Part shown: one piece after another, positions 20,887 through 61,594 of the stretch
Layout: each line of letters starts with the position of its first letter
How positions within the stretch are numbered: the stretch's first letter is position 1
Assembly: GCF_020991085.1 (NCBI RefSeq)
Contig: NZ_CP087719.1
Coordinates: forward strand, 3,306,001 to 3,370,000
Length of the DNA: 64,000 bases
Direction: 5' to 3'
Origin: Roseomonas sp. OT10
GTDB lineage: Bacteria > Pseudomonadota > Alphaproteobacteria > Acetobacterales > Acetobacteraceae
Translations under genes and position numbers: made by a program
The notes under the pieces: model-generated
The model's input: only the letters and a program-made list of their open reading frames with translations
Told to the model about the DNA's origin: nothing
Databases searched by the model: none

Positions 20887-20990
20887 GGCCTTGCCCCTCC
20901 GCGGACACTGCGGCATTTCGATCCGATTTCGAAACCATACCCCTACCGCGGGGTGGTGTCACCATCGCCGCATCCGGCCGGAGCGCCCGC

Positions 20991-21019
20991 TTGCCTGGCG
21001 GGTTCCGCTCCCCTAAGCT
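20991..21019 (+). promoter_or_regulatory. Promoter of trpL-trpE(G)
   Basis: TTGCCT (20991-20996), 17 bases, then TAAGCT (21014-21019) form a good sigma-70-type promoter. The expected start of transcription, about seven bases after the -10, falls on the ATG of the leader peptide at 21026. The leader would therefore be leaderless, as reported for the equivalent rhizobial transcript. No ribosome-binding site precedes that ATG, which agrees. Confidence 0.65.
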
Positions 21020-21025
21020 TGCGGT

Positions 21026-21091
21026 ATGGTTCCGCGCCCAACCCCCACCGTCCGCTGGTGGCGGCCCGTCTCACACGGGCGGCCCGCGTAA
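21026..21091 (+). CDS. trpL: trp leader peptide with tandem tryptophan codons
   Basis: A 21-residue open frame, beginning MVPRPTPTVRWWRPVSHG, carries two adjacent TGG codons at 21056-21061 and ends at TAA 21089. Tandem Trp codons a few bases before alternative hairpins, directly upstream of the anthranilate synthase gene, are the hallmark of an attenuation leader. The ATG lacks a ribosome-binding site and probably coincides with the transcription start. The peptide differs from known rhizobial leaders in sequence but not in layout. It is too short for ordinary gene finders. Confidence 0.82.
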   Translation: MVPRPTPTVRWWRPVSHGRPA

Positions 21092-21134
21092 CCCTGTTCG
21101 CAGCGCCGCCCCGGAGTTCCGGGCGGTCGTTCTT
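21064..21134 (+). promoter_or_regulatory. trp transcription attenuator (alternative hairpins)
   Basis: Three mutually exclusive pairings can be read. Region 1-2: GCCCGT (21064-21069) with ACGGGC (21075-21080). Antiterminator 2-3: GGGCGGC (21077-21083) with GCCGCCC (21105-21111), a perfect 7 bp. Terminator 3-4: CCGCC-C-CGG with CCGGGCGG (21106-21126), followed by TCGTTCTT. A ribosome stalled on the Trp codons at 21056-21061 would cover region 1, free region 2 to pair with 3, and so block the terminator. When Trp is plentiful the 1-2 hairpin leaves 3-4 to terminate. Confidence 0.8.
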
Positions 21135-21190
21135 CCTGCACCCACGCTGACCCGGACCTCCCAGGCCCCAAGATCCCTGGAGATGTCCCG

Positions 21191-23374
21191 ATGACCCGCC
21201 CCGAAGCCCCGGAAAGCACCACGTACCGAACGCGCGGCGGCCTGACCGTCCAGCGCGGGACGACGCGCAACCCCTATGCGGACGGGGCCACCCTGCTGGC
21301 GGCGAAGCTGGACCGCCAGCGCGGCGTGCTGTGCTCCTCCTCCTTCGAGTTCCCGGGCCGCTACACCCGCTGGGACATGGGCTTCTCCGACCCGCCGCTG
21401 GTGCTGACCTCGCGCGGCGGCGTGGTGACGCTGGAGGCGCTGAACGCCCGGGGCGAGGTGCTGCTCTCCGCCATCCTGCCCGTGCTGGCCGAGCTGCCGG
21501 AGGTGGCCTCGCTGGAAGGCGGCGCCACCCGCGCCACGGTCACCATGGCCCGCCCCTCCACCCGCTTCCCGGAGGAGCAGCGCTCGCGCCAGCCCTCCCC
21601 CTTCTCCGTCCTGCGCGCCATCGGCGAGCTGTTCGGCAGCGAGGCGGACCCGCATCTCGGCCTCTACGGCGCCTTCGGCTACGACCTCGTCTTCCAGTTC
21701 GAGCCGATGGCGCTCCGCCTGCCGCGCGGCGCGGACCAGCGCGACCTGGTGCTCTATTTGCCCGACGAGATCCTGGTGGTGGACCACGTCCGCCAGGTCG
21801 CGGAGATCCACCGCTACGAGGTCTCGCACGACGCCGGCAGCACCGTCGGCCTGCCGCGCGGCACGGCGCCCGACCCCTTCCGCCCCGGCACCGGCGCCGC
21901 GCCGCCGGAGAGCGACTACGGCCCCGGCGAGTACGCCGCCATGGTCGAGCGCGCGCGGGAGGCCTTCGCCCGCGGCGACCTGTTCGAGGTGGTCCTCGGC
22001 CAGACCTTCGCCACCGCCTGCCCGGACGCGCCCAGCGAGGTCTTCGACCGCCTGCGCCGCGTGAACCCCGCCCCCTATGGTGCGCTGATGAACCTGGGCG
22101 AGGGCGAGTTCCTGGTCGCGGCCAGCCCCGAGATGTTCGTCCGCGTCGAGGGCCGGCGCATCGAGACCTGTCCGATCAGCGGCACCATCCGGCGCGGCCG
22201 CGACGCGCTGGAGGATGCGGAGAACATCCGCACCCTGCTCAACTCCGCCAAGGAGGAGAGCGAGCTGACCATGTGCACGGACGTGGACCGCAACGACAAG
22301 TCGCGCGTCTGCGAGCCGGGCAGCGTCCAGGTCATCGGCCGCCGCCAGATCGAGATGTACTCCCGCCTGATCCACACGGTGGACCATGTGGAAGGCACCC
22401 TGCGCCCCGAATTCGACGCGCTGGACGGCTTCCTCTCCCACGCCTGGGCGGTCACGGTGACGGGCGCGCCCAAGACCTGGGCGATCCGCCATGTCGAGGC
22501 GGAGGAGCGTTCCGCCCGCCGCTGGTACGGCGGCGCCATCGGGCGCGTCACCTTCGACGGCAACATGAACACCGGCCTGACGCTGCGCACCATCCGGCTG
22601 AAGGACGGCGTGGCCGAGGTGCGCGCGGGCGCCACGCTGCTGCACGACAGCGACCCGGCCTCGGAGGAGGCGGAGTGCCGGCTGAAGGCCAGCGCCATGT
22701 TCGCCGCCATCCGCGGCGAGGGCCCCCGCAAGCCCCCCGCCCCCGCCGTGGCCGCCCTGCCCGCGGGCGGGCGCCCCGCCGTGCTGCTGGTCGACCACGA
22801 GGACAGCTTCGTCCACACCCTGGCCGGCTATTTCCGCGCCGCCGGCGCGGAGGTGACGACCCTGCGCCCCGAGCTGGCGCGGGAGGAGCTGCGACAGGGC
22901 CGTGCCGCGGATCTGGTGGTGCTCTCCCCCGGCCCGGGCCGCCCCTCGGACTTCGCCATGTCCGAGACGCTGGACCTCATCACCCGCCGCAACCTGCCGG
23001 CCTTCGGCGTCTGCCTCGGGCTGCAGGGCATGGTGGAGCATTTCGGCGGCGCGCTGGACGTCCTCGCCCAGCCGATGCACGGCAAGCCTTCCACCATCCG
23101 CCGCCTGGGCGGGAGGCTGCTGGACGGGCTGCCGGAGCGCTTCGCCGTCGGCCGCTACCACTCCCTGCACGCCCGCCGCGTCGTCCTGCCGGCGGAGCTG
23201 GTGGTCACGGCGGAGACGGAGGAGGACGCGGTGGTCATGGCGGTGGAACACGCCCGCCTGCCCCTGGCCGCCGTGCAGTTCCACCCGGAGAGCCTGATGA
23301 CCGGGCCGGAGGAGATCGGCCTGCCCCTGGTCCGCGCCGCCCTCACCCGGCTGCGGGCGCTGGAGCCGGCCTGA
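21191..23374 (+). CDS. trpE(G): Fused anthranilate synthase TrpE-TrpG
   Basis: A 727-residue single chain holding both subunits of anthranilate synthase, the first committed enzyme of tryptophan synthesis. Residues ~1-510 are the chorismate-using TrpE part (SSSFEFPGRYTRWD in the Trp-feedback region, CPISGTIRRGRD, CTDVDRNDKSRVCEPG). Residues ~530-727 are the glutamine amidotransferase TrpG part, with the nucleophile in FGVCLGLQG and the His-Glu pair in QFHPES. The fusion is typical of rhizobia and related alphaproteobacteria. ATG at 21191 has GGAGA seven bases upstream. Control is by the attenuator just before it, and probably by Trp feedback. Confidence 0.97.
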   Translation: MTRPEAPESTTYRTRGGLTVQRGTTRNPYADGATLLAAKLDRQRGVLCSSSFEFPGRYTRWDMGFSDPPLVLTSRGGVVTLEALNARGEVLLSAILPVLAELPEVASLEGGATRATVTMARPSTRFPEEQRSRQPSPFSVLRAIGELFGSEADPHLGLYGAFGYDLVFQFEPMALRLPRGADQRDLVLYLPDEILVVDHVRQVAEIHRYEVSHDAGSTVGLPRGTAPDPFRPGTGAAPPESDYGPGEYAAMVERAREAFARGDLFEVVLGQTFATACPDAPSEVFDRLRRVNPAPYGALMNLGEGEFLVAASPEMFVRVEGRRIETCPISGTIRRGRDALEDAENIRTLLNSAKEESELTMCTDVDRNDKSRVCEPGSVQVIGRRQIEMYSRLIHTVDHVEGTLRPEFDALDGFLSHAWAVTVTGAPKTWAIRHVEAEERSARRWYGGAIGRVTFDGNMNTGLTLRTIRLKDGVAEVRAGATLLHDSDPASEEAECRLKASAMFAAIRGEGPRKPPAPAVAALPAGGRPAVLLVDHEDSFVHTLAGYFRAAGAEVTTLRPELAREELRQGRAADLVVLSPGPGRPSDFAMSETLDLITRRNLPAFGVCLGLQGMVEHFGGALDVLAQPMHGKPSTIRRLGGRLLDGLPERFAVGRYHSLHARRVVLPAELVVTAETEEDAVVMAVEHARLPLAAVQFHPESLMTGPEEIGLPLVRAALTRLRALEPA

Positions 23375-40942: not shown

Positions 40943-41026
<84 letters not shown>

Positions 41027-61146: not shown

Positions 61147-61569
61147 GCCAGACGGCCGGACGGCCGCGGCCCGGGGCGAGAGCCCGGGGTCGAGGAAAGT
61201 CCGGGCTCCACGGGAAGACGGTGCCGGCTAACGGCCGGCGGGGGTCAAACCCCAGGGACAGTGCCACAGAGAGCAGACCGCCCGCCCCCGGGACCCCGGG
61301 TTTCCGGGACTCGGCGGTGGGCAAGGGTGAAAGGGTGCGGCAAGAGCGCACCGCGCCCCTGGCGACAGGGGCGGCACGGTAAACCCCACCGGGAGCAAGG
61401 CCGAATAGGGGCGATCAGCGTGGGCCGAGTCCCGGCCGGACGCAGGGGTTTTTCCGCCCCATCGCCCGGGTTGGCCGCGTCAGGCACGCCGCAAGGCGTG
61501 CCGCAGAGGAATGGTCGTCCGGTCCGAAGTCATTCGGGCTGACAGAACCCGGCTTACAGGCCGTCTGGC
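61147..61569 (+). ncRNA. rnpB: RNase P RNA, bacterial type A
   Basis: The RNA subunit of RNase P, which matures tRNA 5' ends. It is clear from the conserved core: GAGGAAAGTCCGGGCTCC near the start, ACAGAGAGCAGACCGCC, AAGGGTGAAAGGGTGCGGCA, TAAACCCCACCGGGAGCAAG, CCGAATAGGGGCG and CAGAGGAATGGTCG near the end with ACAGAACCCGGCTTACAGG. The P1 stem pairs GCCAGACGGCC (61147-61157) with GGCCGTCTGGC (61559-61569), which sets the ends. Placement just upstream of mraZ is common in alphaproteobacteria. Confidence 0.97.
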
Positions 61570-61570
61570 A

Positions 61571-61594
61571 CCTTAACCCCTAAGGCATTGTTTT
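61571..61594 (+). terminator. Weak terminator after rnpB
   Basis: CCTTA-ACCCC-TAAGG (61571-61585) directly follows the P1 stem, then CATTGTTTT. The five-bp stem is short and the T run broken, so it is a modest candidate for ending the RNase P transcript. Confidence 0.4.

Follow-up and report, generated by a model that had tools for sequence, protein, structure and literature searches.

The fused anthranilate synthase gene trpE(G) of this genome is very probably controlled by a ribosome-mediated trp transcription attenuator, carried on a leaderless leader transcript and located within the window, by which we mean the whole stretch of 64,000 nucleotides analysed here. The anatomy of the element, its conservation, its promoter spacing and the folding of each of its states were established in this study. 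As we infer the start of transcription, its termination and the response to Trp, RNA synthesis would begin on the leader ATG at position 21026 or no more than one or two bases away, and ribosomes would load directly on the 5′ AUG, no Shine-Dalgarno sequence being needed. A shortage of charged tRNA-Trp would stall the ribosome at the tandem Trp codons (21056-21061), leaving segment 2 free for segment 3, and the resulting 2:3 pairing would allow transcription to go on into trpE(G). With ample Trp, the ribosome would reach the stop codon at 21089-21091 and cover segment 2, the 3:4 terminator would form, and termination at this hairpin would release an RNA of about 109 nt; with no translation at all, 1:2 and 3:4 would both form and transcription would also end.

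The features of the leader region, together with a second ORF found upstream of trpD (see below), are collected in Table 1. A first-pass annotation, made from the letters of the window, had described a 21-codon ORF with TGGTGG ahead of trpE(G), a promoter pair and the three alternative pairings; the ORF and its Trp codons match the window base for base, the letters and positions of the promoter boxes agree with it, and so do the coordinates of the 1:2, 2:3 (perfect over 7 bp) and 3:4 pairings. The two promoter boxes are separated by 17 bases, and 6 bases lie between TAAGCT and the ATG. The codon that follows the tandem Trp codons is CGG (21062-21064), at the position of a third TGG in the nearest TrpE(G) relatives, and the T-tail of the terminator is interrupted by C and G. 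In alignments with family relatives, the window TrpE(G) shows 74-79% identity to the five nearer ones and 60% to that of locus L008. Elsewhere, the window holds a class A RNase P RNA (61148-61572) and a tRNA gene (40943-41026).

Table 1. Features of the trpE(G) leader region and of the ORF upstream of trpD (positions are those of the window unless another locus or contig is named).
Feature	Position	Strand	Basis
−35 box, TTGCCT	20991..20996	+	window sequence; box position matched in relatives' leaders
−10 box, TAAGCT	21014..21019	+	window sequence
trpL leader ORF, 21 codons, MVPRPTPTVRWWRPVSHGRPA, without Shine-Dalgarno	21026..21091	+	window sequence, relatives
Tandem Trp control codons, TGG TGG	21056..21061	+	window sequence
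Segment 1, GCCCGT	21064..21069	+	pairs with ACGGGC, 21075-21080
Segment 2	21075..21083	+	21075-21080 with segment 1; 21077-21083 with segment 3
Segment 3, GCCGCCC, antiterminator 3′ arm	21105..21111	+	perfect pairing with GGGCGGC, 21077-21083
Segments 3:4, intrinsic terminator hairpin, one bulged C	21106..21126	+	sequence, relatives, folding
U-rich terminator tail, TCGTTCTT	21127..21134	+	window sequence
GGAG, probable Shine-Dalgarno of trpE(G)	21179..21182	+	8 bases 5′ of the trpE(G) ATG
trpE(G), fused anthranilate synthase, 727 aa	21191..23374	+	ORF, alignments to relatives
WW ORF upstream of trpD	L150:1388-1477; own genome, C1 near 2038381		promoter TTGACC-N18-AAGGAT

The case for an attenuator was built on relatives, gathered by TrpE(G) searches of the family genomes (E <= 1e-150; 19 of 397 with a strong match, own genome included, two of these matches, G376 and G143, covering the TrpE half only) and of the class genomes (E <= 1e-130; 41 of 385 matched, own genome included), to which at least 80 named trpE(G) loci from a collection scan were added. 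The first-pass annotation had proposed the leaders of relatives as a check, and the Trp codons are kept in them: among the 18 of the 19 family loci with upstream sequence, 17 have a leader with two adjacent Trp codons (WW) and one, L008, has WRW. More widely, an ORF with WW or W-x-W precedes 94 of 128 trpE(G) loci, among the matches listed. By a stricter rule (ATG start, 8-32 aa, WW), applied to 124 of the 128 loci, the other four being too short upstream, a WW leader was found in 88 of the 124 upstream regions, window included, and not in the remaining 36, again among the matches listed; the reverse strand gave 0, and 20 shuffles gave a mean of 0.6 and a maximum of 3. Three family leaders are identical, letter for letter, to leaders in named Roseomonas/Pseudoroseomonas records (one of which is labelled Roseomonadaceae in the tree output), and this bears out the Acetobacteraceae-like setting proposed for this DNA. 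Taken together, the conserved WW leaders, the pairings (see below) and the fused trpE(G) downstream support the initial reading of the element as a Trp-codon attenuator. Leaders with WWW were also seen at trpE(G) loci of Candidatus Binatia/Binatota MAGs, outside the Alphaproteobacteria (L060, L064 and L094), where TATAAT precedes the ATG by 9-12 nt and the peptide extends past the Trp codons in a similar way to that of the window.

The fused gene itself is patchily distributed, being present in 4 of the 15 genus genomes and in 19 of the 397 family genomes; in many of the other genomes listed the TrpE-like and TrpG-like matches are separate, and in some genomes (e.g. G029) both arrangements occur. 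At the loci of 21 relatives with an unfused trpE (L010-L030), the strict rule found no WW leader on the coding strand; when W-x-W was accepted, along with any start codon and a span of up to 1500 nt, 3 of the 21 gave an ORF, near the gene at L017 only, and since the matches begin inside the gene the true upstream length covered by these counts varies, being small or unknown for e.g. L016 and L024, where the open frame extends to the end of the locus. The ORF at L017 (G045, same class) is short, ends in WW and lies just 5′ of the unfused trpE frame, about 370-430 nt before the match; it may be a Trp leader that serves an unfused gene.

The pairings were followed in a MAFFT alignment of 21 of 25 leaders (20 distinct, window included), from which L042-L044, duplicates of L032, L035 and L036, and L008, which is without TGGTGG, were left out. 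Across the 20 distinct leaders, 94.4% of the antiterminator cells and 96.0% of the terminator cells are paired, and shifting one partner by 1-3 columns lowers these values to 17-58%. The antiterminator percentage was equalled by 65 of 500 column shuffles, and its outermost position is unpaired in 8 of the 20 leaders. The covariation that the first-pass annotation had proposed as a check in relatives is found in part: the pairings are kept, but two-sided changes occur in two antiterminator pairs only (equalled by 11 of 500 column shuffles), with none in the terminator, whose pairing in these 20 leaders is matched by column shuffles. The near invariance of the leader segments explains why covariation is slight. 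The arms of 1:2 vary yet are complementary in several relatives (CCTGT/ACAGG, CCTT/AAGG, CCTC/GAGG and GTCCGTT/AGCGGAC), and in some a stop codon, read by eye, lies in or beside the 1:2 loop. Because the MAFFT alignment loses the 1:2 register, these arms were read sequence by sequence and no pair count is given; taken singly, no 1:2 hairpin rises above chance (each is equalled by 6-98% of its shuffles), and L040 is without a convincing one. An automatic scan of 83 leaders (ATG-started WW ORFs with duplicates dropped, among the matches listed) called a terminator in 59 and a terminator plus antiterminator in 44, the corresponding values in five shuffles being 11-19 and 3-9. The 39 leaders without both a terminator and a 6-bp antiterminator comprise 24 with no terminator by the rules of the scan, 12 with an antiterminator of 5 bp and three with less.

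Staged folding produced each of the states expected of the switch. With the Trp codons masked and segment 4 absent, the antiterminator formed (−21.3 kcal/mol); with the stop site masked, the terminator formed (−16.1 kcal/mol); and with no ribosome the RNA folded into 1:2 plus 3:4. Once the whole RNA was made, the minimum-energy fold kept the terminator even with the Trp codons masked. The terminator is favoured as soon as segment 4 exists and antitermination must therefore be kinetic, as is usual for attenuators. Geometry and staged folding place a ribosome at the leader stop over segment 2, if its footprint is assumed to reach about 12 nt beyond the A site.

The initial attenuator reading is thus supported, but it had overlooked what is odd about this leader within its family, namely, the loss of a third Trp codon and of an early stop. 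All 15 remaining Acetobacteraceae rows in the TrpE(G) clade of the window are WWW, and the distance from the first Trp codon to the stop, 15-18 nt in the 15 family loci measured, is 33 nt in the window, where TCA CAC stands for the TCG TAA of L007. With the early stop gone, the peptide extends to a later stop and translation passes segment 2. In a TrpE(G) tree of 41 rows chosen from the 128 loci (L058 and L065 absent), 16 of the 17 family rows cluster together (support 92/83) and the window branches next after L007/L039; as these and the remaining rows are WWW, the two-Trp, late-stop leader of the window looks derived. The tree also separates L001 from L002-L004, all rows of the window's genus, which hints at a transfer of trpE(G) within the family. 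WWR is found in L046-L048 as well, and at least seven codons follow the last WW in 11 of the 83 leaders, window included.

Having lost its third Trp codon and its early stop, a state derived relative to the 15 WWW rows and to the 15 other family loci with their stop at 15-18 nt, and having a broken T-tail, the leader could be a decaying attenuator, in which Trp control is being lost and the region is now mainly a constitutive partial terminator. We consider this unlikely, since segments 1-4 are still complementary although their letters differ from those of relatives, the new stop keeps the ribosome over segment 2 under the assumed footprint, and both WWR and extended, 19-aa leaders have been published (PMC7298713). 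The folding results, with the ribosome over segment 2 under that footprint, suggest that a switch with a late stop can still work.

A TTG[AC] box lies 34-38 nt 5′ of the leader ATG in 72 of the 83 leaders (4.4 on average and at most 11 in shuffles) and, at the same spacing, in 19 of 21 leaders from the Acetobacteraceae and near relatives (shuffle mean 0.62, maximum 3); tetramers resembling a Shine-Dalgarno sequence were found in 5 of the 83. Leaderless initiation is likely because the distance from promoter to ATG is nearly fixed and such tetramers are rare, and the view of the leader as probably leaderless, taken at first from the window, gains in this way from its relatives. Judging from the position and spacing of the promoter, transcription likely starts at or next to the leader ATG; the S. 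meliloti trpL RNA has been reported to start with the trpL ATG (PMC7298713). An attenuator with a normal 5′ UTR, transcribed from a start further upstream and with its leader ORF reached by other means, could be argued from a −35/−10 pair that has just 7 of 12 matches and is not called by a consensus scan, but the box held at 34-38 nt and the scarcity of Shine-Dalgarno-like tetramers across the 83 leaders make it decidedly unlikely.

Taken alone, the window leader is statistically unremarkable, and it is conservation that bears the weight of the attenuator case. An ATG-started WW ORF of 8-32 aa arose in 13 of 2000 dinucleotide shuffles of the window's upstream region. The whole leader folds no better than its shuffles (z = −0.73; 41 of 200 fold equally well), and the score of its 1:2 hairpin was equalled by 27% of shuffles. 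Single-sequence folding was set aside as evidence for an attenuator, being uninformative for a fold that is ordinary for its base composition. A strict consensus scan of the window called neither the promoter (7 of 12 matches) nor the terminator, and the Rfam trp leader gave no match over the window at the gathering score and none in 20900-21300 up to E = 5. A chance ORF accompanied by chance hairpins in a GC-rich intergenic region, with which the unremarkable fold of the window would agree, is nonetheless so improbable that it can be dismissed, given that position, codons, pairings and promoter spacing are all conserved in relatives.

The own genome has another WW ORF, MILRSPGAAAAPPRHPAPRGAAWWRGVPA, which starts 8 nt after TTGACC-N18-AAGGAT and whose stop overlaps the likely trpD start. 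Similarly placed ORFs occur in four relatives (L185, L188, L189 and L200), and four of the five overall have WW (not L188); by chance, WW arose in 3 (L150), 34 (L185), 36 (L189), 16 (L200) and 8 (L188) of 2000 shuffles. A promoter-plus-ATG scan of 397 family genomes, a set outside which the genome of L200 lies, gave 12 matches, compared with two for a backward control pattern. Seven of the 12 are the start of an intact trpG (MILLIDNYDSF...), four are ORFs of this kind and one is chance-like. Since the same promoter and ATG belong to an intact trpG in relatives, the ORF looks to occupy the promoter and start of a trpG that has been lost. When the ORFs were aligned with the trpG of relatives, the shuffles that scored as high numbered 2 of 100 for L217 (own genome), 16 for L209, 88 for L212, 1 for L207 and 9 for L200. 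The best trpG alignments of L207, L200 and L212 (the last not above chance) fall on the stretch with CTGGTGGTG, which reads as Trp codons out of frame; the best alignment of the own genome's ORF lies elsewhere, and its WW codons were not traced to trpG. Clear mutual likeness among the stubs was limited to L209/L212/L200 and to L207 with L200 (0 of 200 shuffles each), the stub of the own genome being matched by 2, 19, 26 and 6 of 200 shuffles when compared with L209, L212, L207 and L200, respectively. We regard the WW ORF before trpD as probably a trpG stub left by gene loss, not a second sensor, a plain trpG remnant being likelier than a second trpD leader. It is highly improbable that the genome has two leaderless tandem-Trp leaders, one for trpE(G) and one for trpD, the second derived from the start of the deleted trpG; if true, both separated halves of the pathway would read charged tRNA-Trp by leader translation.

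In E. coli trpL, as proposed for the window, ribosome stalling at tandem Trp codons decides between antiterminator and terminator; unlike the leader proposed for the window, E. coli trpL has a 5′ UTR and a Shine-Dalgarno sequence and belongs to a single trpEDCBA operon that is also repressed by TrpR. The trpL of S. meliloti has been published as a leaderless attenuator of a fused trpE(G) (PMC7298713), and the likeness to rhizobial trpL drawn at first pass holds in that the same fused gene lies downstream. S. meliloti trpL/rnTrpL and the window leader have in common the fused trpE(G), the tandem Trp codons and mutually exclusive structures; they differ in the leader peptide (21 aa with WW in the window, 14 aa in S. 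meliloti) and in the stop codon, which in the window lies beyond segment 2 (PMC7298713). The S. meliloti trpDC is transcribed separately from trpE(G) (PMC7298713); in the own genome trpE(G) (C1:3327191) and trpD (C1:2038494) are separate loci, as in the leaderless rhizobial type. For A. tumefaciens and B. japonicum the comparison is with leader peptide sequences and overproduction effects (PMC7298713). Bja-peTrpL of B. japonicum (MSTAVAPARLWWRTS) is WWR, like the window, and Atu-peTrpL of A. tumefaciens has 19 aa and is extended past the Trp codons, as in the window, which joins WWR with an even longer extension (PMC7298713). Outside the Trp codons no similarity to these two peptides is evident by eye. 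The Acetobacteraceae leaders (L002-L008, L031-L033 and L035-L045) share with the window the promoter spacing, the 1:2, 2:3 and 3:4 segments and trpE(G), but have three Trp codons (WRW in L008) where the window has two.

In the open-licence literature we found no earlier report of such an attenuator in the Acetobacteraceae, which does not imply its absence from print. The leaderless type of trpE(G) attenuator known from rhizobia probably occurs in the Acetobacteraceae too and, by comparison, in the Azospirillaceae and some further groups, its promoter spacing being conserved. The switch goes with the fused trpE(G), the 21 unfused-trpE loci having no WW leader by the strict rule. As a natural variant, the leader in the window lends itself to asking what number of control codons and what position of the stop are required for attenuation.
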